From Embleya scabrispora (GTDB taxonomy: Bacteria > Actinomycetota > Actinomycetes > Streptomycetales > Streptomycetaceae): a DNA stretch of 64,000 nt. Shown here in pieces: positions 2,091 to 41,236 of this stretch (its first letter is position 1; each line of letters opens with the position of its first letter). The stretch spans positions 682,001 through 746,000 of the forward strand of contig NZ_MWQN01000003.1 in the NCBI RefSeq assembly GCF_002024165.1. The letters run 5' to 3'. The notes beneath the pieces were generated by a model that searched no databases, was not told the DNA's origin, and worked only from the letters and a program-made list of their open reading frames with translations. Made by a program: the position numbers and the translations under genes.

Positions 2091-3176
2091 CCCACCGCAC
2101 CGACGCCGCCCCGGATCGGACCGGCCCGACCCGAGTTGATCCTGGATCTCTCGGGCGAGCAGGTCCTCGCGGCCCTTCAGCGCGTCCGCCGAGCGCCGGT
2201 CGTGCGGGAACACCAGTTCCGCCGCGACGTTGTCCTGCACGATCCGGGCCAGGTTGTCGAGGGCGACGAGGACCGGGTCGGTGGGCGGTTGGGCGGTCGC
2301 GATGTCGATCAGGTGCGAGTCGGCCGTCGCGGGGTCCATGAACCGTTTGACGATGATCGAGTTCTGGTTCGGGGCGGACGTGGTCCAGATCGACAGGACG
2401 ACCACGTACAGGCCGGGCCAACTCCCGGGGCCGACCTCGTCCCGCCACCGGTTCATCAGCGCGGTCACGCCGCCGATCTGCGCCCGGGCCGCGTACTCGA
2501 TGTTGGTGGCGATGGCTTCGCCCAGGCCGCCCGTGAAGTCCTCGAACGACCGCGTGTCGAAGGCGGCGCGGCCGGCCGATCGGGCGATGAACTCCAGTGC
2601 CGCGTCCAGGATGTGCCCGCTCGCCGCGTCGAGCCGGCCGGGCAGGCGCGCGTCGCCGAGGTGCCGTCGGGCGTCTGCCAGGGTGGCGCCGAAGGCCCGC
2701 AGCGGACCGATCCACTCGGTCGTACCGGGGCCCTCGAACGCCACCATGTCCACGTCGTGCCGGTCCAGGCGCGCGGTACCGGGCGGGTTCGGGATTCGCC
2801 GGCTCAGGTACGGCGCGAGGATCGAGAAGATGCCCAACGGCACATGGGCGATCGACTTGGCCAGTTCGAAGATGTCCGAGACGGGCCACAGGGACTCCCG
2901 TCGACCCTCGTGCACGAGGGTGAACAGGCCGCCTCGGGAGTCGTTCTCCACGACGACGACCGGCCCGAGGCGCGGGATCAACTCGGCCCGCAGCGTGTCG
3001 TAATGGCGCCGCGTGTCGCCGTCGATCGCGACGATCGTGTTGCGGGCCCGGAGTTCGGCGCCGGCCGGATCCGGCCCCGGGTCGCCCGCATCCGGGGCCG
3101 CGGTCCCGATACCGCCGAGGAACGTCGAGGCGCCGACGGCCGACACGGCTCCGAGGAAGTCCCTACGCGCGGTCAT
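2049..3176 (-). CDS. Tat-exported protein of unknown function
   Basis: A 375-residue protein. The N-terminus has the twin-arginine signal RRDFLGAVSAVGAS followed by an Ala/Gly-rich segment, so it is probably exported folded. The rest has balanced, globular composition with no repeats and few Cys. I do not recognise the family. A stretch around residues 205-300 (ending in motifs such as NQNSIIVKRF) looks like a compact helical domain. The gene converges on the ABC permease gene and the two 3' ends overlap by 42 bp, so either the real proteins overlap or the Arg-rich C-terminal tail is an extension past a lost stop. Confidence 0.7.
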   Translation of the reverse strand: MTARRDFLGAVSAVGASTFLGGIGTAAPDAGDPGPDPAGAELRARNTIVAIDGDTRRHYDTLRAELIPRLGPVVVVENDSRGGLFTLVHEGRRESLWPVSDIFELAKSIAHVPLGIFSILAPYLSRRIPNPPGTARLDRHDVDMVAFEGPGTTEWIGPLRAFGATLADARRHLGDARLPGRLDAASGHILDAALEFIARSAGRAAFDTRSFEDFTGGLGEAIATNIEYAARAQIGGVTALMNRWRDEVGPGSWPGLYVVVLSIWTTSAPNQNSIIVKRFMDPATADSHLIDIATAQPPTDPVLVALDNLARIVQDNVAAELVFPHDRRSADALKGREDLLAREIQDQLGSGRSDPGRRRCGGSRVAFLEEEGAEE

Positions 3177-3381
3177 GCCCCACCGCCCGCCTTTCCGCCG
3201 CTGCGCCCGGGCCCGGCGTGTTTGTCGAGTTCCAGCGTGAGGGCGCGGAACGGCGCGATGCCATCCCTCGTTCGACTGAACGCGCCGGGCCGCCCCGCTA
3301 CCGGGCCACGGCGCGGACCGGGAGCGGGGAAGGCGATGATCGTCGCAGGAATCGGATCGGGCGAACCATAAGGGGCGAGGC

Positions 3382-3882
3382 GTGGGCGAGAGCGACGGCG
3401 CCGGGATCGAATCGGCGCAGGATGCCGCGAACGACGAGTTGGTGCTCGCGTTCGGGCGGTTGCAGGGGGCGGCCGGGCGACTGGAGTACCTGCTCGGCGG
3501 CGCGATCGAGGAGGAGTTCGGGATCAGTCACCTGATGTACGAGGTGCTGCTGATCGTTGGCCGAGCGGGTGGCGCAGGCATGTCGATGCGCGCGATCGCG
3601 CAGGAGCGGGTCCTGACCACGGGCGGGATGACCCGCCTGGTGGACCGCATGGAGGCGGCCGGCCTGGTCGCGCGCACCGACGACCCCACGGACCGTCGCG
3701 GCAAGCTGGTACGGCTGACCGCGCACGGCCGGGACGTCGTGGTGCGGGCCAGTCGACTCCACGTACAAAACATCCGCCGCCACTTCCTGGAACCGCTGCC
3801 CGCGGAGGCCCGGGAACAGTTCATGGAGTGCCTGCGCATCCTGTCCCACGCGGCCCGTGACGCCCTCCCACGCCTGCGCTAG
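3382..3882 (+). CDS. MarR family transcriptional regulator
   Basis: A 166-residue winged-helix regulator. Residues 50-110 contain the MarR core: SMRAIAQERVLTTGGMTRLVDRM as recognition region, then the wing AGLVARTDDPTDRRGKLVRLTAHG. The GTG start at 3382 follows AGGGGCGAG. MarR proteins bind short palindromes and are released by small phenolic or oxidised ligands. A perfect inverted repeat lies 56 bp past its stop, in front of the DsbA-like gene, so that gene is its likely target. Autoregulation is not evident, since no matching palindrome was seen upstream of 3382. Confidence 0.93.
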   Translation: MGESDGAGIESAQDAANDELVLAFGRLQGAAGRLEYLLGGAIEEEFGISHLMYEVLLIVGRAGGAGMSMRAIAQERVLTTGGMTRLVDRMEAAGLVARTDDPTDRRGKLVRLTAHGRDVVVRASRLHVQNIRRHFLEPLPAEAREQFMECLRILSHAARDALPRLR

Positions 3883-3937
3883 CCCGAACCGACCGGGTTC
3901 ACCGGCTCGCCCGGCCGAGCGCACACCCGAAGGGAAT

Positions 3938-3955
3938 ATCTGACAGAACAGATAC
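3938..3955. promoter_or_regulatory. Candidate MarR operator
   Basis: Perfect inverted repeat TATCTG-N6-CAGATA between the MarR gene and the DsbA-like gene; another CAGATA half site follows just downstream. The size and position fit a MarR-type operator overlapping the promoter of the downstream gene. Binding by the adjacent regulator is inference. Confidence 0.6.
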
Positions 3956-4044
3956 TGTTGGAGCAGATACATCGCTTCGACCGGCACCTGCGCCCGGAGC
4001 GGTGCGTATGCCCGAGCCATTCCCTCCCACGAAAGCCCCTTCCC

Positions 4045-4689
4045 GTGAAACTCGTCTACGTCTTCGACGCATACTGCGGCTGGTCCTACGGCTTTGCCCC
4101 CACCCTCGCCGAGGTCACCGCGCGCCACCCCGAACTGCCCGTCGAGGTGGTGTCCGGGGGGCTGTTCACCGGGCCGCGCGCCGTGCCGATCCGCGAGTTC
4201 GGCTACGTCCAGGGGGCGAATGCCCGGATCAGTGAGCAGACCGGCGTCGTGTTCGGGCCGGCCTACGAACGGCTGATCGCGGACGGGTCGTTCGTGATGG
4301 ACTCCGCGGCGGCCGCACGCGGCATGGCGGCGCTTCGGCAGGCGGCGCCGGAGCGGGCGGCGGCACTGGCCGGCGAGGTGCAGGCCGCGTTCTATCGCGA
4401 CGGGCTGAGCCTGTCGGAGCCCGGTACGTTCCTCCGCGTCGCTGCCGCGGCCGGCCTCGACACGACGCGGATCGGAGCCGCGCTCGACGCACCGGCCTCC
4501 CGTCACGCGGCCGAGGCCGACTTCCGGTGGGCGGCCGAGTCGGGGGTGACGGCGTACCCGACCCTCCTGGTCCAAAACGGCGAGCGCGTCGCGGTCCTGG
4601 CCGTCGGCCGCGCCGATCCCGACTCGATCGACGCCGCGCTGGAACGGTTCGGAGCGGGCCGCCCCGGGACCACCACCGCCGGCCACTGA
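4045..4689 (+). CDS. DsbA-family thioredoxin-fold protein with CxxS active site
   Basis: A 214-residue protein starting at GTG 4045 (KLVYVFDAYCGWSYGF). It has the thioredoxin beta strand followed by the active-site turn and a helical insert of about 130 residues, then the cis-Pro loop TAYPTLLV near the C-terminus, as in DsbA/FrnE/HCCA-isomerase-like proteins. The usual CxxC is Cys-Gly-Trp-Ser here: the second Cys is missing. This leaves a monothiol enzyme that could do isomerase or glutathione/mycothiol-dependent chemistry rather than disulfide formation. No signal peptide, so cytoplasmic. The start was placed at 4045 because upstream in-frame sequence overlaps the candidate operator. Confidence 0.85.
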   Translation: MKLVYVFDAYCGWSYGFAPTLAEVTARHPELPVEVVSGGLFTGPRAVPIREFGYVQGANARISEQTGVVFGPAYERLIADGSFVMDSAAAARGMAALRQAAPERAAALAGEVQAAFYRDGLSLSEPGTFLRVAAAAGLDTTRIGAALDAPASRHAAEADFRWAAESGVTAYPTLLVQNGERVAVLAVGRADPDSIDAALERFGAGRPGTTTAGH

Positions 4690-4730
4690 GGCGCGCCCCC
4701 GGACACCGCCCGACTCCCCTCTCGACACAG

Positions 4731-4768
4731 GATTGGTTATGCGCATAATCTTATGCGCATAACCAATC
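4731..4768. promoter_or_regulatory. Double palindromic operator in front of the F420-type nitroreductase gene
   Basis: A perfect 18-bp inverted repeat (GATTGGTTATGCGCATAA and its complement) with a 2-bp spacer. Each arm itself contains the palindrome TTATGCGCATAA, so the site is also two direct copies of a 12-bp palindrome 14 bp apart. This is the pattern expected for two regulator dimers bound side by side on one face region of the DNA, or for a cruciform. It sits 38 bp before the next start codon. The regulator is unknown; the nearest candidate is the MarR protein about 0.9 kb upstream. Confidence 0.75.
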
Positions 4769-4806
4769 TGCCGTCAGGCACAGGCACGGCCCGTCGAGGA
4801 GAGCCC

Positions 4807-5301
4807 ATGACCACCGACATCGATCAGAGCGCGATACCCACCGGGGACTACGAGCCGAGCGCGTCGCCGTGGGTCCGCGAGCACGTCGAGCAGATCATGC
4901 GCACCGGGACCACCGAGGGCATCACGATCAAGGGCCTGCCCACCGTGCTGCTCACCTATCGGGGCGCCAGGTCCGGCAAGATCCGCAAGACACCGGTGAT
5001 GCGCGTCGAGTACGGGGGGCAGTACGCGGCCGTCGCATCCAAGGGCGGCGAGCCGACCAACCCGCAGTGGTACGCCTCCCTCGTCGCCGAACCCGTCGTC
5101 GGTCTCCAGGACGGCACGACCGTCGGCGGATATCGGGCGCGCGAGGTGTTCGACGACGAGAAGGCCGTGTGGTGGCGCCGAGCCGTGGACGCGTACCCGG
5201 ACTTCGCCGACTACCAACTCCGGACCGACCGCCTCATCCCGGTCTTCGTCCTCGAACCCGTCGACGCGAACACACCGGCGCGGCACGCGGTCGAGGACTG
5301 A
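4807..5301 (+). CDS. Nitroreductase family deazaflavin (F420)-dependent oxidoreductase
   Basis: A 164-residue protein of the Ddn/FDOR-A type: it carries TVLLTYRGARSGKIRKTPVMRVEY, followed by YAAVASKGGEPTNPQWYASLVAEP and the ending RLIPVFVLEPV, all hallmarks of F420H2-dependent quinone/nitro reductases. ATG 4807 is preferred over an ATG at 4753 because GAGGAGAG precedes it and the earlier start lies inside the operator. Family members reduce quinones or nitroaromatics with F420H2 and protect against redox stress. The palindromic site upstream implies tight control by a ligand-sensing repressor. Confidence 0.92.
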   Translation: MTTDIDQSAIPTGDYEPSASPWVREHVEQIMRTGTTEGITIKGLPTVLLTYRGARSGKIRKTPVMRVEYGGQYAAVASKGGEPTNPQWYASLVAEPVVGLQDGTTVGGYRAREVFDDEKAVWWRRAVDAYPDFADYQLRTDRLIPVFVLEPVDANTPARHAVED

Positions 5302-5510
5302 GCCGACCCGCACTCCCGCAGGGGCGCCGCCGTGGCCGGCGCCGACCGCGGTCATCTCGACGAAACCCCCGCCGGCGCGGGCGAGTCGGCCTACCCTGAT
5401 CGGGGAGGGTCGTACGCGGTGGTGCGCGGCGACCGTGGGGGGAGCGCGTCGGCATCCGCGTCCACCGGGCGCCGGTCACCGGACGCGGGAAGACGGTGGG
5501 GGTATTCGGC

Positions 5511-6404
5511 ATGTCCTTCGGTGTGTCCTCCAATCGAGCGTCGGGCGTGCGCGCGCTCGGCCGGACGGTGTGTGCGGCGACCGTGGCGGGATCGCTGGTC
5601 GCCTGTGGAGTGGTGGTCAAGCAGGGTCTTCCGGCGCTGACCGTCGAGGTGGCCCGGCTGATGATGAGCCAAGGCGGCGACATCTCGGTCGAGCAGGCCG
5701 CCAAGCTCACGGTGACCGTACTGGGACCGATCGCCCTGGAAGCACTGCTCGCCGCGAGCGCGGCCGGCACCGACCCCGGCGCCGGCCCGTCCGGCGGCAT
5801 CGTCCCCGTCGCGCATCGCGTCGCCTCCGATGCGACGCGACCCGTGGACAACGACTGGACGATCGTGGTGCGCCGCAAGGTCGACGGCACGGTGCGGAAC
5901 ACCGGATACCGAGTCGCCTACGCGGGCAAGGTGTACGTGCTCACCAACGGCCGTACCGCGCAGTCGTTCGAGCCCAGTCGGAAGCTGATCACGATCGACG
6001 CCACCTCGGACACCGCGACCGCCGTCGCCGTCGTGGACAGCCTGGAGCAACCGGTGCGCAGTTCGGGGAAGTTCCGGCTCCTGGTGGCGGGCAAGTACAC
6101 CGACTACGACTTCGACTCCGACAAGCGCTCCGCCTCGCACGCCGGCACCGACCTGCACGCCGGCCTCGGCGGCCCCTCGGCCGCACACGGCGCGCGGTAC
6201 GCGAAGTTCTCCGGCGACAAGACGCCGTCCCTGCGGGACTGCGTCACGGAACCACCGGACGCCTGGGGCAGCGATTTCAACAAGCTCAACCCCTACGGCC
6301 ACTACTGCCTGCAAACCGCCGACGGCCACTTCGGCACCCTCGGACTCAGCAGCACCAGCGAATACTCCTACACGATGTGGCAAACGGCAGTCGCCACTAA
6401 GTGA
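5511..6404 (+). CDS. Putative lipoprotein of unknown function
   Basis: A 297-residue protein with a positively charged N-terminus, a short hydrophobic stretch and a lipobox-like LVAC-G about 30 residues in, so probably membrane-anchored on the outside. ATG 5511 was chosen because GGTGGGGGT precedes it. The body after residue 90 alternates charged strand-like segments (NDWTIVVRRKVDG, YRVAYAGKVYVLTNG) and ends in a region with two Cys that may form a disulfide. I do not recognise a family. It converges on the HAD phosphatase gene with only about 40 bp between stops. Confidence 0.72.
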   Translation: MSFGVSSNRASGVRALGRTVCAATVAGSLVACGVVVKQGLPALTVEVARLMMSQGGDISVEQAAKLTVTVLGPIALEALLAASAAGTDPGAGPSGGIVPVAHRVASDATRPVDNDWTIVVRRKVDGTVRNTGYRVAYAGKVYVLTNGRTAQSFEPSRKLITIDATSDTATAVAVVDSLEQPVRSSGKFRLLVAGKYTDYDFDSDKRSASHAGTDLHAGLGGPSAAHGARYAKFSGDKTPSLRDCVTEPPDAWGSDFNKLNPYGHYCLQTADGHFGTLGLSSTSEYSYTMWQTAVATK

Positions 6405-6446
6405 GGCGGCCGGGCACGATGATCGGGCTCGGCCGAGCCGAGGGAC

Positions 6447-6929
6447 TCAGGTGCGGCCGGCGCCGTTCTGAGCCTGTCGCAGCGCCTGCGAGGACGGCAT
6501 CCAGTCGGCGTGTACCACCCGGAAGCCCGCGGCCCGGTATGCCTCGCAGACCAGGGCGTCGTCGTCGACGACCATGGCGACGGTACGGCCGCGCGCGAGC
6601 TTCCGCAGCAGTTCGGGTTTGGCGACCCGTGCCGGGCGGCGGTCCCGCTCGGCACGCATCAGCAGGCGGCCGGCGGGCAGGCCGTGTCGATCCAACCAGT
6701 CGACGGTGTCGCGCCTGCAGCGCTCCGGACGGCCGGTCACGTACACCACCTCGTGCGTCTCCGCACTGGTCCGCGCGAGTTCGGCACCCTCGGCGAGCGG
6801 CGCGTCCTGCGCCGCGGCCGCGAAGAACGCGTCCCAGTCCCGGGGACGCGCCTCGACGAAGTGCAACCGGTGCCGGGTATCGGCCACCGTGCCATCCAGG
6901 TCGAACACCGCCAGCGGACGGGATATCAC
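6447..6929 (-). CDS. HAD superfamily phosphatase, polynucleotide-kinase-3'-phosphatase-like
   Basis: About 160 residues. HAD motif I is FDLDGTVADT directly at the N-terminus, with both Asp residues; motif II is VVYVTGRPE; the Lys of motif III lies in the KPELLRKL region; motif IV is MVVDDDALV. This compact layout matches the C-terminal phosphatase domain of T4 Pnkp-like proteins and acid-phosphatase-like HADs. GTG 6929 is preferred because GGAGG sits 5 bp upstream; an earlier open extension is Arg-rich and lacks a site. The gene is divergent from the peptide cluster to the right and shares its long upstream region. Confidence 0.87.
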   Translation of the reverse strand: MISRPLAVFDLDGTVADTRHRLHFVEARPRDWDAFFAAAAQDAPLAEGAELARTSAETHEVVYVTGRPERCRRDTVDWLDRHGLPAGRLLMRAERDRRPARVAKPELLRKLARGRTVAMVVDDDALVCEAYRAAGFRVVHADWMPSSQALRQAQNGAGRT

Positions 6930-7432
6930 AAACGCCTCCACGACAATCCGGACTCGGTCGCGCAGTCTACGCCGATGCCGCGGGGCTCCCGGGAGCCGCC
7001 TCGGAGCCGGCGTCGTCACCCCTCGCCGTCGGAGCACAGGGCCGCCGACTCGGGAGACATCCAGGCGGGCAGGCCGTCACCGGTCACCACCGACCCGGGC
7101 ACTCGGCTCCGCCGGCCCGCTTACCCCCGTGGCCGAAAGAGATCCGTTTATCCTCGCTCCTACTCGACCTCCGCACGTGATCGGAACCGCCGACGGATCT
7201 TTCGGGGACCCGCGCGCAAGATCGACACACAACCGCTTACATCTTTTGTGTGAGGAGTGTGTGAGCCTTTTTGATCTGTGATCCACATCACATTGACGCA
7301 CCTTTCGTATCAAGGCTTCACTTTCGAGGCGACGAGAATCGAAAGACGGATTCTCTAGCGGTGGATATCTCTCCACCGGTCCGGGTCGCGTAGGAAACCC
7401 GGCCGGTCCACAGTCACCTGGAGGTTGTCGTG
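6930..7432. promoter_or_regulatory. Long, relatively AT-rich leader region upstream of the peptide precursor
   Basis: About 500 bp without a credible gene. From about 7130 the base composition drops well below the surroundings (runs such as TTTTTGATCTGTGATCC). It holds small hairpins: CGGTGGA-N6-TCCACCG at 7359-7378 and CCGGGT-N10-ACCCGG at 7381-7402, followed by the ribosome-binding site CTGGAGG at 7418-7424. The promoter of the peptide cluster should be here, and the hairpins may shape its 5' untranslated region. No regulator-type long palindrome was seen. Confidence 0.5.
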
Positions 7433-7516
7433 GTGAAGATCGTCAACTCTTTCTCCAAGAGGTTCAGGGTCGAGAAGAGCCTCAAATCCGCCACCTGGTA
7501 CATCTGGTACAGCTGA
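7433..7516 (+). CDS. Atropopeptide (tryptorubin-type) RiPP precursor peptide
   Basis: A 27-residue peptide: a basic leader beginning MKIVNSFSKRFRVEKSLK and the C-terminal sequence SATWYIWYS. Tryptorubin A is the hexapeptide AWYIWY, carved from the C-terminus of a ribosomal precursor and cross-linked by one P450. The pentapeptide WYIWY is identical here and a P450 gene follows. Two differences stand out: Thr replaces the Ala before Trp, and a Ser follows the last Tyr. The KSLK just before the core recalls, from memory, a leader motif of this family. GTG 7433 is chosen with GGAGG 8 bp upstream; an overlapping GTG at 7430 would add one residue. Codon use is less GC-biased than in neighbours. Confidence 0.88.
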   Translation: MKIVNSFSKRFRVEKSLKSATWYIWYS

Positions 7517-7717
7517 TCGTTTCGATCGGCTCCGCCTGAGATTCGGTTGATCCGCCGACCGATGCGGTTCGGGCTCGCTCCCGCCGCATAATCGTTACCT
7601 CTGCGGTAGCGCCGCCTCGACCCGACCGAGCGTCGGATCGCCGCCCGGGCTCGCGTCCGGTGGAGCCGCGTCCCGGCTCCGCCGGGCGGGAGACTCTACG
7701 CCCAGTGGAGAGCACCG

Positions 7718-8779
7718 ATGAATCGTTCCGACACGGTCGGAAGTGCCCGGGTCACCGTTTTCGCGCCGAAGATCGAGGAACTGCTGCGCGAACGTCGCGG
7801 TGCGGGGTTTTTCCGCATCGACGGCGACACGGTCGGGGTCGCCGATCCGGAATTGATCAACAAACTCCTGGAGAGCAGGCCGGCGCACGAATTCGAGCGA
7901 CCGACTTTCAAGCCGCTCCAGGGAAGATCGATCGAGCGCGTGGAGGCCAACGACGTCCTGCGGGCCGTCTCGCACGACGTACGCGCCGCATTGGGCGGCC
8001 CGGCTCCCGATTCCGTCGATCTTTCCGGAATCTGGCCGCGTACGGGGCACGCGTATCTTCGCGATCTTCTTTTCGGGCCCGATCCCTTGCGGTTTCGCAT
8101 GCTCACCGATCGCCGCCTCGAAAAGGCGCCGGTACTCACCCGCGCCGTGGTCCGCACGAGTGCCGTCCTGCCGGGAAAGCCCGCCCTCGACCCGCCGGTG
8201 TCCCGCCTCGCCGCCGTCATCGCCGCGGCCGCCGAGCACGGCGACCGGCACTACGCCATGGGCCTGTACCGCCGGGTCGCCGCGCCGGTGTGCCTGGGGG
8301 TCGCGGCGCTGGTTGCGAACGCGCTCTGGCTCGGCTCGCCGTTCCACCCCGACGCGAGCAACCGGCACATCGTGCTGGAGTCGCTGCGGTTGTTGCCGCC
8401 GTCGTGGAACATCCTGCGGGTCGCGTCCCCCGAGTTCTCCGCCGTGGACTCCCGGATCGGCCCGAACGACGATGTGCTGCTGCTCCCGCTGTTGACCCAC
8501 CGCGATCCCGAACTGTGGCCCGAGCCCGATGTGTTCGTCCCCGAGCGCTGGCACGAGCTGGACGAGGACGACCACCCGGGCTACATTCCCTTCGGCCACG
8601 CGAGCGATCGTTGCCGGGGTCGGCACCTGATCGTCCCGCTCGCCGAACACCTCCTCGAACGCTTGCGCGCCGACCACCTCGCGGTGAGCCCCGGACAGAC
8701 CACCGCCAAGGTGCCGCTCGCCGGCCTGCTCGGGGTCACACGGGTACAGGTGTCCCGAAACCGACTGTCCGGCAGCTGA
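7718..8779 (+). CDS. Cytochrome P450, predicted cross-linker of the tryptorubin-like peptide
   Basis: A 353-residue P450, shorter than the usual 390-420. The K-helix ExxR is E221-S-L-R224, the PERW block is at 275-278, and the heme-ligand loop is F292-G-H-A-S-D-R-C299-R-G301. The Gly normally four residues before the Cys is Ala295. No acid-alcohol pair of the (A/G)GxDT type is visible in the I-helix region near residues 185-205, which is typical of P450s that couple aromatic radicals instead of hydroxylating. In the tryptorubin pathway a single P450 makes all C-C and C-N bonds between Trp and Tyr side chains and the backbone. GTGGAGAG lies 8 bp before ATG 7718. The 200 bp after the precursor show no gene. 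Confidence 0.9.
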   Translation: MNRSDTVGSARVTVFAPKIEELLRERRGAGFFRIDGDTVGVADPELINKLLESRPAHEFERPTFKPLQGRSIERVEANDVLRAVSHDVRAALGGPAPDSVDLSGIWPRTGHAYLRDLLFGPDPLRFRMLTDRRLEKAPVLTRAVVRTSAVLPGKPALDPPVSRLAAVIAAAAEHGDRHYAMGLYRRVAAPVCLGVAALVANALWLGSPFHPDASNRHIVLESLRLLPPSWNILRVASPEFSAVDSRIGPNDDVLLLPLLTHRDPELWPEPDVFVPERWHELDEDDHPGYIPFGHASDRCRGRHLIVPLAEHLLERLRADHLAVSPGQTTAKVPLAGLLGVTRVQVSRNRLSGS

Positions 8780-8804
8780 GTTCGGCGCGGCGCGCCTTCA
8801 ACGC

Positions 8805-8828
8805 GCCGGATCCCGCCCGGGATCCGGC
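8805..8828. terminator. Hairpin between converging P450 and serine hydrolase genes
   Basis: Perfect 11-bp inverted repeat GCCGGATCCCG / CGGGATCCGGC with a 2-bp loop, lying between the two stop codons. A further GGGATCCC copy follows at about 8831. No U-tract, as usual for actinomycete terminators; probably bidirectional. Confidence 0.65.
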
Positions 8829-8847
8829 TCGGGATCCCACCTGGTCG

Positions 8848-10374
8848 TCAGCCGTCGTGCGCCACGACCCTGCCGCCTCGGTAGAGGTACCGAGTCCCGT
8901 CCAGCGTGAAGAACTTGATCGTCTGCCACTCGCGCGTGTCGGACACACGATGCACGTACAGGTCACGGCCGGCCGGCAGGAGGCGGAACTCCGACGGCGC
9001 CCGCCCCTCGAACGTCCGGCGCACGTACAGCGCTCCGTCGCGTTCGAGGACCTCCTCGACGATGCCGGTGGCCGGGTAGCGGCCCAGGTATCCGCCGGCG
9101 TCGCGTGGCGGGGTAGTGCCGTCGGGGGTGTGCTGCGGGCGTGGTGCGACGTGGGCGAGGGCGGTGAAGATCTCCCGGAACAGGTCCACGTGCAGCGCGG
9201 CGTTGTCGCCGCCGTTGGTGAGCAGGACGACGGCGATCCGGGCATCGGGCAGGATGCGCAGGAAGGACGCCTGGGCGTGGGTGGTGCCGTCGTGGCCGTA
9301 GGCGGTGCGGCCGTTCCAGTCCCAGCGGGCCCAACCCAGTCCGCGGGTTTCGCCGCTGTCGGCGGTGTCGGGCGTGTCGGTCCACCGCGAGCGCATCGCT
9401 TCGGCGGAACGGCTCGACAGGATGCGCGTGCCGTCGGGCCCGCGCCCGTCGTCCAGGTGGAGGCGGGCGAACGTGAGCACGTCCTCGACGGAGGAGCAGA
9501 CGATGCCGGCGGGGCCCGAGGAGCGCGGTATCGGGGCGGGGTTCACGTGCGGAGGCCGATCCCGCTCCCAGGTGTGTCCGGCGGCGGCGCGGTGGGCGAG
9601 CACGTCCTCGGGCAGGGTGTGCGTGCGGGTCAGGCCCAACGGCTTCAGGAGCCGATCGTGGAGTGCGGCGTCCCAGGTCGTACCGGTGACGCGCTCGATG
9701 AGCCGGCCCGTGAGCATCAGGCCGGCGTTGCAGTACGAGTGGACGCGGCCGAGCGGGTGCACGCCTCGAACGCCTCCGAGCAGCGCGGCGTATCGCTCCA
9801 GGCAGTCGTCGCCGCGACCGGTGTCGGTGAGCACGTCGCCGTCGATTCCGCTGGTGTGCGTGAGCAGGTGACGCAGGGTCAGGCGGGCTGTGCGCTCCGG
9901 GTCCGACAGGCGCAGTTCGGGCATCACCCGGGTCACGGGTGTGTCGAGGTCGAGCAGGCCCTCGTCGACCAGGCGCATGGCCACGGTCGCGGTCCAGACC
10001 TTGGTGACGGAGCCGATCTGCCAGACGGTGTCCGGTGTGGCCTCGATCCGGTCGTCGACGTTGGCCATGCCGGTGGCGATCTTCGTGACACGATTGCCCG
10101 ACAGGATGCCCAGCGCGGCGCCCGGGACCTGATGGCGGGCGGCCAGTGCGTCGAGCCTGGTCTGCCAGTGCCGCGCGGCGGGGCCGGCGGCGGACGGGTC
10201 GGCGGGCGCGGGAGGTTGCTCGGCGGCGTACGCGGACGGCGCGAGGGCGGAGCCGGTCGCGGTGGCGCCGGCCGCGACGCCCAGCGACCCGCGAAGCACG
10301 GCGCGCCGGGTGGGCGACACGGACGCGTGGCCGGCGGCCTCGTCGGCGGAGGGGGTGTCACGATGGTCGATCAC
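8848..10374 (-). CDS. Tat-exported serine hydrolase (class C beta-lactamase / D-peptidase fold)
   Basis: A 508-residue protein starting at GTG 10374 behind GAGAGGCGAC. A Tat signal (TRRAVLRGS near residue 22, then AAGATATGSALAPSAYA) ends near residue 51. The penicillin-binding fold follows: S122-V-T-K125 gives the nucleophile and base, Y214-C-N216 the second motif, and HDGTT lies where the KTG-like triad is expected. A C-terminal beta-rich domain of about 100 residues (GGYLGRYPATG onward) is typical of EstB/D-aminopeptidase relatives. It could act on cell-wall peptides, esters or other secreted peptides. It converges on the P450 gene; a role in trimming the RiPP would be speculation. Confidence 0.9.
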   Translation of the reverse strand: MIDHRDTPSADEAAGHASVSPTRRAVLRGSLGVAAGATATGSALAPSAYAAEQPPAPADPSAAGPAARHWQTRLDALAARHQVPGAALGILSGNRVTKIATGMANVDDRIEATPDTVWQIGSVTKVWTATVAMRLVDEGLLDLDTPVTRVMPELRLSDPERTARLTLRHLLTHTSGIDGDVLTDTGRGDDCLERYAALLGGVRGVHPLGRVHSYCNAGLMLTGRLIERVTGTTWDAALHDRLLKPLGLTRTHTLPEDVLAHRAAAGHTWERDRPPHVNPAPIPRSSGPAGIVCSSVEDVLTFARLHLDDGRGPDGTRILSSRSAEAMRSRWTDTPDTADSGETRGLGWARWDWNGRTAYGHDGTTHAQASFLRILPDARIAVVLLTNGGDNAALHVDLFREIFTALAHVAPRPQHTPDGTTPPRDAGGYLGRYPATGIVEEVLERDGALYVRRTFEGRAPSEFRLLPAGRDLYVHRVSDTREWQTIKFFTLDGTRYLYRGGRVVAHDG

Positions 10375-10927
10375 GATGTCGCCTCTCGATCGATCTCGGT
10401 GGGGCGCGGCGCACGCAGGTGGCCGCCACGCGAGCGAGCGGGCACGCGGGCGGGCACGTACGACGACGCGGGCGCCCATCGCCGGCGCACACCGGAGGCG
10501 TGGCCGAATACGCCGCGCTCAACGGGACTTCGCCCCATGACACCGTGCCCGCGCACTCCCCGATCGCGTGGGTCGAGGCTATGAAGCCGCCCCGGGCGGG
10601 CACGTCCCCCGAGGGTACGAGGACCCGAGTACTGCCCCGGCACACTCGACCGCCCCGCGCGTCCTACACCGGTACCCGCTCCGAGGGCCGATGTCGCCGC
10701 CGGCGAGGCGGGCCCCTGGGGATCGGGTGCGGAAGATTGCGCGCGGCACGAAACAGCCGTACCCGCCAGTGCAGTTCATGCCCTGTCACCAGCGCGGCCC
10801 GCACCGCACACTGACCTGGTCCACATCGATCGGGTGTCCCGGCGCACCCCGCACCGGGCCGATCGTCGGGCCCGGCCCCCGCGAACTCGCGCGGTACGGC
10901 CGGGCGTTCCGGACAGAAAGGGTCCCG
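10375..10927. other. Intergenic region without a recognised gene
   Basis: About 550 bp between the divergent serine hydrolase and small secreted protein genes. Short open frames exist on both strands but none has a start with a ribosome-binding site or a sensible protein. It should hold two divergent promoters. I see no long palindrome. Confidence 0.5.
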
Positions 10928-11167
10928 ATGAATCGTTCGACCCGGATGCCGAAGCTCCGTCCGCGGTTCCGCCGCCTGGCCGTCTGCGCGGCCTCGGCCG
11001 CCGTTCTCGCGCCGGTGCTCGTCCTCGCCGGTCAGACGTCGGCGAGCGCCCTCCCGACCGGCGCGAGCCGCAGTGCCTCCTGCGGCGCCGCCTACCAGAT
11101 CAATCTCCAGGTCGGTGGGTACCAGTTCGCCCGTACCCAATACCTGGCGTGCGTCGGCCAGATCTGA
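10928..11167 (+). CDS. Small secreted protein, unknown function
   Basis: A 79-residue protein starting at ATG 10928 after GAAAGGG. Residues 1-44 form a Sec signal (Arg-rich start, hydrophobic core, ASALP cleavage area). The predicted mature part is only about 36 residues, with two Cys (CGAAYQINLQ and YLACVGQI) about 22 residues apart that may form one disulfide, and an aromatic-rich middle. I do not recognise a family. The short size and disulfide could fit a secreted signal, inhibitor or toxin-like peptide, but nothing in the neighbourhood decides. Confidence 0.7.
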   Translation: MNRSTRMPKLRPRFRRLAVCAASAAVLAPVLVLAGQTSASALPTGASRSASCGAAYQINLQVGGYQFARTQYLACVGQI

Positions 11168-11400
11168 TCCGCGTCGACGCACGTCGCCGGCGGCGCCCGA
11201 CCGACGGCCCGTGATCCGCCCGCGCGGCTCCCGCCCTTCCCCGTGGGGCGAGTTCGTGGCCGCGCGGGCCCGGCCGGCGTCCGCGTCCGCGCGCCGGCCG
11301 CCTCCGGACGGCCCCCGCGTCGAGCCGCCGACGAGCGCCCGCGATCATGTACCGCAGCCACGATCGGCGGGATCGGGGCGGGAGCGGATCGGAAACATCG

Positions 11401-12156
11401 ATGGCGCGTGTGGGTTCGGCTGCGTCGGGACGCCTCGCGGCGGCCGCGGCGGCGGGGATGGTCCTGGTGACGGGATGTTCGGCGGCCGCGGACCTGGCCG
11501 ACACGGCCTCGGCCGATCTGTCGAAGCTGAGCACCGAGGCGGTGTCCGAGCGGGTCGCCAGGGCCGTGGACCGCGTGCATTCGGTCCGCGCCACCGTGGA
11601 GTTGCGGCGGAACGGCACGACCCAACGCACCGACCTCCGGTTGGACATACGGACCGGCGACTACTCGGCGACCGCCAAGACGTCGAGTTACACCATCGAG
11701 ACGGTGCGCATCGGTGAGGACGTCTACGTCAAGGCTCCGCGCGCCTACTGGCAGTCGCGGCTCGGGCGGGACAAAGCCGCCCTCCTCAACTCGCTCGACG
11801 GCAAGTACGGGCACGTGGCCGCCGACGACCCGGCCCGGTCCACCATGAAGAACCTCAGCAAAAAGGCGGACCCGCACACCATCCTGCCCAATCTGGGGGA
11901 CGCCGAACGCCGCCCCGACTCCACCGTCGACGGCCGGCGCGTGGTCGTCCTCGCCGAATCCGGCGAGAAGAACCCCGACCTCCTGTACATCCCGGTGGAG
12001 GGCCCGGCCCTGCCCGTCAAGGTGGCCGGCTCCGACAGCGCGACGTTGACCTGGTCCGAGTACGACCACCCCGTCGACATCCAGGCCCCCGCACCCGACC
12101 GGATCGTCGAACTTCCCAACCTCGGCACCGCCCGGCCCGGCGCCGGCGTGCTCTGA
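11401..12156 (+). CDS. Lipoprotein, possibly LppX/LprG-like
   Basis: A 251-residue protein from ATG 11401. The signal ends in the lipobox VTGC near residue 27, so it is anchored to the outer face of the membrane. The body is rich in short beta strands (ATVELRRNGTTQRTDLRLDIRTGDYSA, EDVYVKAPRAYWQS) and resembles the beta-sheet lipid- or ligand-binding fold of LppX/LprA/LprG-type actinobacterial lipoproteins, though the match is by feel only. An upstream in-frame ATG at 11347 would add a charged tail ahead of the signal and is less likely. No obvious operon partner. Confidence 0.75.
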   Translation: MARVGSAASGRLAAAAAAGMVLVTGCSAAADLADTASADLSKLSTEAVSERVARAVDRVHSVRATVELRRNGTTQRTDLRLDIRTGDYSATAKTSSYTIETVRIGEDVYVKAPRAYWQSRLGRDKAALLNSLDGKYGHVAADDPARSTMKNLSKKADPHTILPNLGDAERRPDSTVDGRRVVVLAESGEKNPDLLYIPVEGPALPVKVAGSDSATLTWSEYDHPVDIQAPAPDRIVELPNLGTARPGAGVL

Positions 12157-12221
12157 GCACCGGCGTCGACCTCGACCGTACGCCGCCGACGCGGACGCCC
12201 GAGCCACCGGGCGGAGCACCG

Positions 12222-13721
12222 CTATCCCGCGGCGCGCGGCACCGAACGCACGACGGCACCCGGACCGTCGAGCAGGTTCCGGCTGTCCCGGATCGCCTCC
12301 TGCTCCCGGGCCGGATCGAAGCCCCGGGTGGCCAGGAAGTAGGCGGCGCCGGAGGCGACCAGGCCGACCACGAACGCGATGTCGGCGCCGTCGAGCGCGT
12401 CGACCATGGGCCCGGTGTAGAAGCCGGTGGTCATGAACGGGATCAGCGCGGCCACGCCGAGGGCGTAGGAGAGCAGACCCGCGCGGCCCCAGCGGCCGTA
12501 GATGCTGTCGGGGCTGAAAATCTCGGTGATGGCGTAGTGGCCCCGGCGCACGAAGTAGTAGTCGATGAGATTGACCGCGGTCCAGGGCGCCAGGGCGTAG
12601 AGGATCAGCGTGATGAAGTCGTTGAAGCTGTCCAGGTACTTGCCCGGCAGCCCCTCGGCCACGGCGAACACGACCGCGGCGCCGGTCGCGACGCCGACGA
12701 CACGGGTACGGGCGGTCAGCGCGATCGGCCGGAAGGCGTGCACGATGCTCAGACCCGAGAGCATCGCGCCGTAGAGGTTGACGCCCATGATGGCGATCGC
12801 GCTGGGCACCAGGACCGCGACCACGGCGGTCTTGCCGAAGCCGGAGAAGAGCGTGTCGCCGATGTCCTGGAGGTTGACCAGCGCGTCGGGGACGGGAACG
12901 GAACTCGCGACGAAGTTCCCGAGCACCATCAGCCAGATCGCCGACAGCGCGGCCCCGGCGTAGGTCCAGCCGATCACCCCGCGCCCGGAGGTGTCCGCGG
13001 GCAGGTATCTGGAGTAGTCGGAAACGTAGACGGCGTAGCCGAGTTGGTAGCCGGCGGCGGCGACGAACTGGGCGAGCGCGGCGGCCCAGGTGAAGGAGGC
13101 GGTCCGCGGGTCGTGATGCGGGCTCAGGTGTGTCAGGGCGAGCACGGTCAGGATTCCGAACACGGGTACGACCAGATACGGCAGCAGGCGCAGCACGGTG
13201 TGCAGCAGGTCGTAGCCGACGATCGCGAGGACGGCCGCGAGCAGCACGATCACCACCGCCCACAGCGTGGTCGAGCCGGGCAGCACCGTTTCCAGCACCT
13301 GGGAGGCCAGCAGGACACCGAAGGCGCTGAAGCCGATGTAGACGCAGATGACGGCGAGCATCGGCACGAGCGCGCCGCGGGTGCCGAACTGGGCGCGCGA
13401 TTGGATCATTTGCGGCAGGCCCATGGTGGGTCCCTGGTTGGCGTGGAACGCCATGAAGCAGGTGCCGAACAGGATGCCCAGGACGGTGGTCGTGATCGAC
13501 CAGCCGAGGGACAGTCCCATGACCGGTCCGGCGAAGCCGACGACCATGGTGGTGGGCACGAACTGTCCGGTGAACCAGAACGGCGCCTGGTGCCAGGCGC
13601 GGCCGTGTCGCTCGGACTGCGGGATGTAGTCGATCGAACGGGTTTCCAGGACCGGGCCGCTGCGCGGGTTCTCGCCGGGTGCCGGCTGCCGGCTCCTCGT
13701 CGCGCCTGTGGGGTCGACCAT
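12222..13721 (-). CDS. NCS1-family nucleobase/allantoin/hydantoin permease
   Basis: A 499-residue membrane protein with about 12 transmembrane segments. Marks of the purine-cytosine permease family are IDYIPQSERHG near the N-terminus, NQGPTMGLPQMIQSRAQFGTRGA in the first helices, YVSDYSRYLP in the middle and NLIDYYFVRRGHY after helix 9. Start ATG 13721 follows GAAGGAGGG. It is the last gene of the minus-strand operon that begins at 18425, only 26 bp after the M20 gene, so it probably imports the nitrogen compound that the operon degrades. A second, more distant NCS1 gene lies at 27659. Confidence 0.94.
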   Translation of the reverse strand: MVDPTGATRSRQPAPGENPRSGPVLETRSIDYIPQSERHGRAWHQAPFWFTGQFVPTTMVVGFAGPVMGLSLGWSITTTVLGILFGTCFMAFHANQGPTMGLPQMIQSRAQFGTRGALVPMLAVICVYIGFSAFGVLLASQVLETVLPGSTTLWAVVIVLLAAVLAIVGYDLLHTVLRLLPYLVVPVFGILTVLALTHLSPHHDPRTASFTWAAALAQFVAAAGYQLGYAVYVSDYSRYLPADTSGRGVIGWTYAGAALSAIWLMVLGNFVASSVPVPDALVNLQDIGDTLFSGFGKTAVVAVLVPSAIAIMGVNLYGAMLSGLSIVHAFRPIALTARTRVVGVATGAAVVFAVAEGLPGKYLDSFNDFITLILYALAPWTAVNLIDYYFVRRGHYAITEIFSPDSIYGRWGRAGLLSYALGVAALIPFMTTGFYTGPMVDALDGADIAFVVGLVASGAAYFLATRGFDPAREQEAIRDSRNLLDGPGAVVRSVPRAAG

Positions 13722-13747
13722 GTGCCCTCCTTCACGTGGGGCAGAAT

Positions 13748-15025
13748 CTACAGTTGTCTGCCGGTTTGTCTGCTCGGGGAGACGCGGCCGGTGTCGGCCT
13801 GTGCCACGAAGTCGGCGAATCCCGCGATGGCGCGGGCGAAGGTGCGCGCGGCGAGGGTGAGATCGCCGATCCCGACCCATTCGTCGGCGCCGTGGGCCTG
13901 CTCGATCGAGCCGGGGCCGTAGACGACGGTGGGGATGCCGAGGCGATTGCGCAGGAAGCGGGCGTCGGAGCCGAGCGAGAGGCCGATGAAGCCCTCGCCC
14001 GGCGCGACGCGGGAGCGGGGTCGGGTGTGTGGTCGCGGGCGCGGTCGGCACGCGTCGACGAAGTCCGCGAAGGGGTGCGGCAGGGGCAGCTCGGAGGCCT
14101 CGCAGAAGAACTTCGGCAGTACGCGGTAGTCGACGTCGGGGCAGCTCGCGTCGATGGTGCGCACGATCGAGGCGTACACGTCGTCGGCGCTCTCCCCGGG
14201 CAGCGTGCGCCGGTCGATGGTCAGCGTGCAGGCGGGGGCGATCACGTTGGCCGCGACGCCGCCGCGCACCATCGCCACGTTGCACGTCGGGCTGCCGAGC
14301 AGCGGGTGTGGCCGGTCGTGGAAGCGGGCCAGGTGCAGGGCGGTGGTGATCCGTGCCGCGTCGGCCACCGCGGAGCGGCCGAGCGCCGGTTCGCCGCCGT
14401 GTCCCGCCGTACCGAAGACCTCGATCCCGGCCTGCCACGAGCCGCGTTCGGCCACCGCGACACGCAGCCCGGTCGGCTCGGGGACGATGCACGCGTCGGC
14501 CCGGACCAGGCCGGCGTCGACGAGTTCCGCCGTACCGTGGGCGCCGCCGGTCTCCTCGTCGGCGACGAGGTGGAAGACGATGTCGGCGTCCGGTGCGAGC
14601 CCGGCGTCGAGGCAGGCCCGCAGGCCCTCGACGGCGGCGGCGATCCCACCCTTCATGTCCGCCGCACCGCGTCCGATCAGCCGGCCGCCACTGACGACCG
14701 CGTCGAACGGCGGCGTGGTCCAGTCCGCCTCGACCACGGGCACCACGTCCACGTGGCCGTTGATCAGCAGCGTCGCCCGCCCGGGTGCGCCGGTGCCGTA
14801 TCGGGCCAGCACGGACGGCCGGCCGCCGCTCGACGTGAACACCTCGGTGTCGCAGCCGATCGCCCTCATGAGGTCGAGCAGCGCCGGTACGGCCGCGGCC
14901 TCTCGGCCGGGCGGGTTGCGGGTGTCGATGCGCACCAATGCGGCCGCGGTGCGGGTGACCCGATCCACCCGGACGAACGCTTCGACGGCGGACTCGGGGA
15001 TGTGTGGCGAGGAAGTCGTCGTCAT
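13748..15025 (-). CDS. M20 family metallo-amidohydrolase (ArgE/DapE type)
   Basis: A 425-residue zinc hydrolase. Visible motifs: LLINGHVDVVPV (metal His and catalytic Asp), GRGAADMKGG (bridging Asp), ADEETGGAHGT (general base Glu and metal Glu), ACIVPEPT (metal Asp/Glu) and a C-terminal HGADEW-like block for the last His ligand. The lid domain sits near residues 190-300. Family members split N-acyl or N-carbamoyl amino acids and succinyl-diaminopimelate. Its ATG overlaps the TGA of the DUF1028 gene by 4 bp, showing translational coupling. In this operon it plausibly hydrolyses an N-acyl or N-carbamoyl intermediate. Confidence 0.93.
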   Translation of the reverse strand: MTTTSSPHIPESAVEAFVRVDRVTRTAAALVRIDTRNPPGREAAAVPALLDLMRAIGCDTEVFTSSGGRPSVLARYGTGAPGRATLLINGHVDVVPVVEADWTTPPFDAVVSGGRLIGRGAADMKGGIAAAVEGLRACLDAGLAPDADIVFHLVADEETGGAHGTAELVDAGLVRADACIVPEPTGLRVAVAERGSWQAGIEVFGTAGHGGEPALGRSAVADAARITTALHLARFHDRPHPLLGSPTCNVAMVRGGVAANVIAPACTLTIDRRTLPGESADDVYASIVRTIDASCPDVDYRVLPKFFCEASELPLPHPFADFVDACRPRPRPHTRPRSRVAPGEGFIGLSLGSDARFLRNRLGIPTVVYGPGSIEQAHGADEWVGIGDLTLAARTFARAIAGFADFVAQADTGRVSPSRQTGRQL

Positions 15026-39596: not shown

Positions 39597-41075
39597 TCAA
39601 GACAGGGTTCGGGACGCGCGGCGGGCGGCCTCGCGCGTCCCGGGCCCGGCGGAGGGCGGTGTCGCGGTGCGCGGGATGGCCGCCGCGGTCAGTGCCGCCG
39701 CGAGGGCCGCGGCGGCGGCGAGGGCGAAGACGATGCGGTACGCGTCGAGCGAGGCGTAGGTGCCGCCCGTCGCGTCTCCCGGGTCCGCCGGCACCGTCGT
39801 GGTCACCGTGGTCAGCACGACGGCGACCACCGTGCTGCACAGGGCCTGGCCGATGGTGCGCATCAGCACGTTCAGGCCGGTCGCCGCCGCCGTCTGCGCC
39901 GCCGGCACCGCCTGGATCACCAGGGTCGGCAGCGCCGAGTACACCAGCCCGGTCCCGATCGAACACATCGTCGCCCCGGCCGTGATCGTCCACATCTGCT
40001 CACTGGTGAACACCCGCACCACGTAGGCGCCGGCAATTCCCAGCGCCCCGGCCACCAGCGTCAGGCGCGCCCCGCGTGCGGCGGACAACCGGGCCGACAC
40101 CGGCGACATCACCACCATCGCCACCCCGCCGGGCAGCAGGCACAGGCTCGCCACCAGCGCGGACGCGCCCAAGCCGTATCCGGTGCCCTCGGGCGCCTGG
40201 ACCAGTTGCACGGTGGCCAGCCAGTTGGCGTAGAAGGCGAATCCGGTCACCAGCGCCGCCAGATGCGGCAGCAGCACGGTACGGCGGGCCGCCAGGCGCA
40301 GGTCCACCAGCGGCTCGCGCGACCGCAGCTGATGCCGGCCCCACAGCGGCAGGACGAGTACGCCGCCCGCCCCGACGCCGAGCACCGCCGGGCTCGTCCA
40401 CCCCCAGTCGCCGCCCTTGGACACCGCGAGCAGTACGCCCACCAGTCCCGTGGTCAGCAGCAGCGCGCCGACCACGTCGAACCGACCCGGTGTGCGGGCC
40501 GACGAGCGCGGCAGTACCCACCACGAGAGCCCCGCACCCAGCGCGCCCAGGCCGGTGGTCACCCAGAACAACACGTGCCAGTCCGCGTGCCGCACCACGA
40601 TCGACGCCAGCGGCAGCCCGGCCGCCGCCCCGATGCCCACCGTCGAACTCATCAGCGCGACCGCCGAACCGACCCGGTGCGGCGGCAGTTCCTCGCGCAG
40701 GATGCCGGTGGCCAGCGGCACCACCGCGGCGGCGGTCCCCTGGAGCGCCCGCGCGGTGATCAGGACGCCGATGTCGGTGGTCAGCGCGCACAGTGCCGAA
40801 CCCACGGTCATTCCCACGAGCGCGGCGACCAGGATGCGGCGTCTGCCGTACATGTCGCCGGCCCGCCCGAGGACCGGGTTGAGCACCGCGCCGGAGAGCA
40901 GCGTCGCGGTCAGCATCCAACTCACCGTGCCCGGCGAGGACCCGGTGTCGCCGGGCAGTGCGGGCAGCAGCGGCACGATCACCGTCTGCATGAGCGCCAT
41001 CAGGACGCCGCCGAAGGCCAGGGTCGGCACCATCAGACGGGAACGAAGGCCGGATGAGGGTACTGCGGTCGGCAC
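39597..41075 (-). CDS. MFS drug-efflux transporter (DHA2/EmrB type)
   Basis: A 492-residue transporter with about 14 hydrophobic segments. Motif A between helices 2 and 3 is GRAGDMYGRRRILV, and LPALPGDTGSSPGTVSWMLTATLLSGA and ITARALQGTAAAVVPLATGIL are typical DHA2 blocks. GTG 41075 is used, with a weak ribosome site. It is divergent from the next MFS gene; a CTGACG-N3-CGTCAG palindrome 36 bp from its start is the kind of site read by TetR repressors of efflux pumps, but no such repressor gene is nearby. Confidence 0.93.
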   Translation of the reverse strand: MPTAVPSSGLRSRLMVPTLAFGGVLMALMQTVIVPLLPALPGDTGSSPGTVSWMLTATLLSGAVLNPVLGRAGDMYGRRRILVAALVGMTVGSALCALTTDIGVLITARALQGTAAAVVPLATGILREELPPHRVGSAVALMSSTVGIGAAAGLPLASIVVRHADWHVLFWVTTGLGALGAGLSWWVLPRSSARTPGRFDVVGALLLTTGLVGVLLAVSKGGDWGWTSPAVLGVGAGGVLVLPLWGRHQLRSREPLVDLRLAARRTVLLPHLAALVTGFAFYANWLATVQLVQAPEGTGYGLGASALVASLCLLPGGVAMVVMSPVSARLSAARGARLTLVAGALGIAGAYVVRVFTSEQMWTITAGATMCSIGTGLVYSALPTLVIQAVPAAQTAAATGLNVLMRTIGQALCSTVVAVVLTTVTTTVPADPGDATGGTYASLDAYRIVFALAAAAALAAALTAAAIPRTATPPSAGPGTREAARRASRTLS

Positions 41076-41110
41076 GCGGCGACTCCGGGATCCGGGGGCC
41101 GCCAGCTGAC

Positions 41111-41125
41111 CTGACGACCCGTCAG
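41111..41125. promoter_or_regulatory. Candidate TetR-type operator of the DHA2 efflux gene
   Basis: Perfect palindrome CTGACG-ACC-CGTCAG close to the start of the minus-strand MFS gene. No adjacent regulator gene. Confidence 0.6.
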
Positions 41126-41236
41126 ATCAGTTCTGTCACGAACTCCCTCGGAACGCCGGCACACGTGACGGACGTCGCACCGCGCCGCGCGGCGGGATGG
41201 ACCGATCCCGAAAGTGCGGGCGAAAACCCCTTGCCC

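Follow-up and report, generated by a model that had tools for sequence, protein, structure and literature searches.

What does a gene pair make in which a tiny peptide gene, carrying WYIWY near its 3′ end, is followed by a single cytochrome P450 gene? Tryptorubin A has the sequence AWYIWY, and the first-pass annotation of this DNA took the pair for an atropopeptide cluster with a tryptorubin-like product, cross-linked with the loss of several H2. We analysed the pair in its window (the whole stretch of 64,000 nucleotides) and against its relatives. The unit is genuine and intact and, judged from its sequence, probably functional. We consider it likely that the two genes form a functional atropopeptide (RiPP) unit of scabrirubin type, yielding a cyclic WYIW with one bridge.

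The gene pair and its limits

The unit has the following features (window coordinates).

7265..8783, +, whole unit common to the window and E. scabrispora DSM 41855 (single blastn alignment, E 1e-10, against locus L018)
7277..7292, no strand, perfect palindrome TGTGATCCACATCACA, CRP-like, about 140 nt 5′ of the precursor at the left edge of the shared block
7420..7424, +, ribosome-binding site GGAGG, 5 nt 5′ of the GTG at 7430, identical in four Embleya
7430..7516, +, precursor peptide gene, 28 codons and TGA (NF038372 match; frame kept in four Embleya)
7475..7486, +, KSLK leader motif, residues 16–19 by translation (motif as defined in PMC11450843)
7493..7513, +, heptapeptide core TWYIWYS, residues 22–28 by translation, one residue off the TWFIWYS of ScaA
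7496..7507, +, WYIW, predicted mature tetrapeptide with Trp23 and Trp26 bridged, from scabrirubin and scabrirubin CB-1
7517..7717, +, between-gene stretch from precursor to P450, partly conserved in four Embleya
7718..8779, +, intact cytochrome P450 gene, 353 residues, ScaB counterpart (Pfam p450; 95% and 77% identity to Embleya relatives)
8294..8299, +, Leu193-Gly194 (Phe-Thr in 50/50 other atropopeptide P450s aligned; Leu-Gly also in a half gene of the Embleya genome G003)
8378..8389, +, ExxR motif (E221, R224), invariant in 53/53 aligned atropopeptide P450s
8612..8614, +, haem-ligand Cys299, invariant in 53/53 aligned atropopeptide P450s

Translation of 7430–7516 gives the peptide VVKIVNSFSKRFRVEKSLKSATWYIWYS (stop at 7514–7516), and the C-terminal end of this 28-residue precursor is KSLKSATWYIWYS. 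A GTG-started gene of 27 codons from 7433 had been proposed; the gene and its GTG stand, but the start was set one codon late. In all four Embleya genomes searched the scabrirubin-type precursor gene opens with GTG and its second codon varies (GTG, GTG, ATC, AAG), and the published numbering of ScaA (W23, F24, I25, W26; 28 residues; PMC12352619) agrees, so that 7430 is the better start. The proposed GGAGG is present, and so is the same-strand P450 gene, which begins 201 nt after the precursor and has GGAGAG ahead of it at 7707–7712.

The precursor scored 38.9 bits against the NCBIfam model NF038372 (tryptorubin_fam, tryptorubin family RiPP precursor; cut-off 33), as the one match in the 10.96-Mb window genome; 0/14 control genomes gave a match. 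Because a curated NCBI model exists for such precursors, the gene may already be annotated. A scabrirubin-type precursor was carried by 4/4 Embleya genomes searched. Those of E. hyalina (38.9 bits) and E. scabrispora DSM 41855 (35.7 bits) also exceeded the cut-off, and that of G003 reached 29.8 and 31.7 bits in two scans, below it. G003 has two atropopeptide clusters, L007 (G003:C692) and L044 (G003:C257), with cores AWYAWY and TWFVWYS.

The Pfam p450 match to the window enzyme (E 2.6e-13) spans residues 218–304 only. Seven other P450 matches in the window genome align with the C-terminal part only, at 30–37% identity. The closest solved structure by sequence was 9ulw_A (record name 'Cytochrome P450'; E 4e-12, query residues 207–319), and an AlphaFold2 model of the enzyme from a three-row alignment (A1) had a mean pLDDT of 31.6.

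Two relatives of the window genome, both of its own genus Embleya, set the limits of the unit. In E. hyalina NBRC 13850 (NZ_BIFH01000018.1, L017) the precursor is identical letter for letter, the P450 is 95% identical and the flanks are colinear, with 90–95% DNA identity over window positions 2134–14824. When the window was compared with 17 kb of E. scabrispora DSM 41855 (8 kb per side), the 1.5-kb unit alone aligned, and the P450 was the only one of 14 window reading frames tried that matched that locus. Since E. scabrispora DSM 41855 shares only 7265–8783, neither a tailoring gene nor a protease is conserved together with the unit. The HAD phosphatase (6447–7037), the β-lactamase-family hydrolase (8848–10479), the 5496–6404 protein without a Pfam match and further neighbouring genes were considered as cluster members and rejected, all being common to E. 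hyalina and absent beside the E. scabrispora unit.

Placement among atropopeptide clusters

Published criteria define an atropopeptide precursor by KSLK, or a listed variant, at residues 17–20 and by Trp at core position 2 (xWxxxx) (PMC11450843). The window precursor carries KSLK at residues 16–19, one off the stated place, as does ScaA by its published numbering, and its core TWYIWYS has Trp at position 2. In the tree, the adjacent P450 falls together with that of sca and 50 others, on a branch separated from a sister group at 100/100. The assignment as an atropopeptide cluster with one precursor and one P450, made earlier from the letters alone, is thus supported by a P450 that groups with those having such precursors.

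A P450 search at E 1e-50 gave matches in 65/394 genomes of the family Streptomycetaceae; a class-wide precursor search found 3/394 genomes, from a different sample and by a different method, so that the two rates are not comparable. We inspected the upstream side of the matches listed in the P450 search and of two from another family; five weaker P450 loci (L012–L016), which did not match at E 1e-25, were left out. Among the matches listed, 54 distinct places had upstream DNA and a P450 at least 53% identical to the window enzyme, and in all 54 an atropopeptide-like precursor lay 68–233 nt 5′ of the P450 match; the count excludes L043, a C-terminal half gene of G003 without an upstream side. 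The L011 locus, for example, has an AWYHWY precursor. A further 19 places at about 40% P450 identity form the sister group, with precursors of the type [AS]WxxH[VL]I and no KSLK; these were found in 17/19 when a ribosome-binding site was required and in 19/19 by pattern search.

The sister group (19 Streptomycetaceae loci, L064–L082) has 27-residue precursors such as MKMIKALVKKFKKDEDLANHAWVLHVI. Two of them gave no match in an NCBIfam scan, and their core strings were not found among the literature matches listed. We considered a new family and dropped the idea, because cyptides with a Trp C7′–His bond have been described beside roseovertin (review PMC12299652); the group is probably roseovertin-type and already known. 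As putative roseovertin-type cyptide loci, its members resemble the window unit in their small upstream precursor and related P450, and differ in the presumed Trp–His bridge, the core and the lack of KSLK.

The tree comprised 72 P450s, 53 of atropopeptide type and 19 sister rows, leaving aside the G003 half genes, duplicate loci and housekeeping CYPs. It is drawn midpoint-rooted, and 'outside' here means with the 19 sister rows as outgroup. The P450s of the window, E. hyalina and E. scabrispora DSM 41855 form one group with moderate support (96/79), and the other 50 atropopeptide P450s stand apart from these three complete Embleya enzymes at 100/97. The window enzyme is nearest ScaB and lies off the branch that holds the remaining atropopeptide P450s; TryB, LauB1 and SvaB were not identified among the rows of the tree. 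Published trees place ScaB nearest the root of 288 such enzymes and the polycyclising TryB, LauB1 and SvaB away from it (PMC12352619).

The sca locus (E. scabrispora DSM 41855, contig NZ_KB889561.1; PMC11450843) shares with the window the two-gene layout, the leader, KSLK, a heptapeptide core ending in Ser and the upstream palindrome, but its flanking genes differ. Its P450 is 77% identical, and 25/28 precursor residues are alike; the exceptions are V2 for I2, V14 for T14 and Tyr for Phe24 (TWYIWYS against TWFIWYS). The tryptorubin and laurentirubin clusters (try, lau) share the family, the KSLK leader and the WYIWY core, whereas their cores are hexapeptides without Ser and their P450s, reported to make several bridges, lie away from ScaB. 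The window unit is a close relative of the characterized sca cluster and not new in kind; its family, gene layout, Ser-terminated heptapeptide and chemistry have all been described before.

Positions 43, 142, 148, 193, 194 and 304 set the four scabrirubin-type Embleya enzymes apart from at least 46 of the 50 other atropopeptide P450s, our threshold for listing a position; 142, 148, 193 and 194 do so from 50/50. A set of nine fixed Embleya residues was rejected, as G003 has the residue of the other branch at 297, 300 and 305. The sister group carries the Embleya residue at 43 (18/19) and at 142, 194 and 304 (19/19 each), so that at these four Embleya may have kept an ancestral residue and not acquired a new one. 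Descent alone can also account for a difference that is fixed on a single branch. By sequence, Leu193-Gly194 would lie within the I helix over the haem.

The predicted product

Expression of the sca cluster in S. albus is reported to give scabrirubin, a WFIW peptide with one Trp–Trp C–N bond, from the predicted core TWFIWYS (PMC11450843). ScaB combined with LauA, whose core contains WYIWY, gave cyclic WYIW (m/z 665.3083) and WYIWY (m/z 828.3718), each minus 2 Da and with a Trp–Trp C–N bond, and LauB1 and SvaB were unable to cyclize the ScaA core (PMC12352619). The two compounds, scabrirubin CB-1 and CB-2, were reported in 2025 and called non-natural (PMC12352619). They have the WYIW(Y) sequence that we predict here, but were obtained by mixing genes of two organisms, whereas in the window one genome has both parts. 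With WYIWYS and a ScaB-like enzyme side by side in the window, cyclic WYIW is expected as a natural product.

By analogy with the published sca experiments, we propose that the 28-residue precursor would be translated first and its leader would dock on the P450 via KSLK. The enzyme would then set a single C–N bond between the Trp23 and Trp26 side chains, and peptidases that the unit does not encode would cut off Tyr27-Ser28 at the C-terminus and, at the other end, the leader together with Thr22. Beside the unit, the window and E. scabrispora DSM 41855 have no protease, transporter or additional enzyme in common, so trimming is probably the work of host peptidases. The end product would be cyclic WYIW, identical to scabrirubin CB-1, with an expected [M+H]+ of 665.308, and a likely companion would be cyclic WYIWY (CB-2) at 828.372; the computed values for WYIW and WYIWY minus 2 Da are 665.3082 and 828.3715. 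At 77% identity to ScaB, the enzyme may form a different bond or one more. The P450s for jum and amyxirubin yield one and the same product at 59% identity, and one varsorubin P450 gives two bridging patterns (PMC11450843).

That a chance peptide merely stands beside an unrelated P450, or that the cluster is dead, is extremely improbable. Both genes are intact, the P450 has its ExxR motif and cysteine, and the frame is kept in four Embleya; the NF038372 score above the cut-off, the single match in the genome with none in the controls, the precursor upstream in 54/54 places and the tree grouping all argue that WYIWY beside a P450 is no accident here, as had been claimed. A tryptorubin-like outcome, in which (T)WYIWY receives two bridges (minus 4 Da) or three (minus 6 Da) from the P450, gains from a core that differs from tryptorubin A only at the first residue and by the added Ser, and from the tryptorubin B reported on expressing lauA together with lauB1 (PMC11450843). 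We nevertheless find it quite doubtful in view of the enzyme, which is ScaB-like and belongs to the four Embleya enzymes that are set apart from all 50 others at residues 142, 148, 193 and 194. Because ScaB sets one bridge on the WYIWY of LauA as well (PMC12352619), the core sequence alone cannot decide the number of bridges. The several lost H2 of the first-pass annotation thus give way to the loss of 2 Da that a ScaB counterpart predicts, and a mass search for multi-H2 loss would probably miss the product.

The ends of the peptide raise a further alternative, namely that the native product is longer, TWYIWYS or WYIWYS with one bridge, because Embleya is without the trimming peptidases of S. 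albus. The C-terminal Ser occurs in one precursor of each of the four Embleya genomes and in 0/50 other precursors, including the second one of G003, so it may matter, and the published C-terminal trimming of scabrirubin was observed in S. albus, a foreign host (PMC11450843). Set against this, the C-terminus could be a short follower, as the authors of that study suggest (PMC11450843). We judge the longer product unlikely and prefer cyclic WYIW.

If cyclic WYIW is indeed formed, a compound obtained from mixed genes becomes a predicted natural product that can be sought by its exact mass, and the search target is corrected to the loss of one H2, not several. The accessible parts of the literature on scabrirubin name no natural producer of CB-1 and make no mention of the product of the E. 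hyalina locus; in a literature search that did not extend to supplements we found no paper with TWYIWYS. Three heptapeptides with a terminal Ser are counted in the AtropoFinder paper (PMC11450843); the window precursor or its E. hyalina twin may be among them and thus already catalogued. Against influenza viruses in cell culture, CB-1 was reported to be about as active as scabrirubin (PMC12352619). A WYIWY core paired with a presumed one-bridge enzyme would make it testable with natural parts whether enzyme or core is the cause of polycyclization. More speculatively, the window Embleya and E. hyalina might be natural producers of CB-1. One WYIWY would then meet one-bridge enzymes in these two and multi-bridge enzymes in Streptomyces, and Leu193-Gly194 against Phe-Thr would be a tentative candidate for the switch.

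Conservation and possible rearrangement of the DNA

The palindrome at 7277–7292 resembles a Crp operator, and its sequence points to possible Crp-type binding. The exact pattern TGTGAN6TCACA has 10 sites in the 10.96-Mb window genome, and the reversed pattern has none. It lies upstream of the precursor in 4/4 Embleya, and in a scan of L001–L082 no exact copy was found in any other locus.

Within the precursor gene, the 30 nt at 7436–7465 (codons 3–12) are invariant across four Embleya, silent sites included, which suggests a constraint on DNA or mRNA beyond the peptide. Over P450 residues 1–150 of the same four, codons are identical at 45 of 100 same-residue positions and the longest run is 3 codons. 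Values of dN/dS for the precursor (NG86, codons 3–28) were mixed, with dN > dS in 1/6 pairs, and, resting on 1 to 10 nucleotide differences per pair, they were given no weight. An alignment of the four Embleya over 7517–7717 (A2) had a mean column identity of 79%, first and last codons included.

The otherwise colinear E. hyalina locus is longer by about 1.8 kb immediately 5′ of the unit (L017 5489–7377 against window 7028–7074) and by about 1.9 kb near window position 12.2 kb (L017 12506–14386 against window 12153–12198). Window 39635–41179, about 31 kb away from the cluster, matches positions 2939–4463 of L043, the G003 contig with the C-terminal P450 half, at 82% DNA identity, perhaps a trace of the unit having been rearranged or relocated between species.
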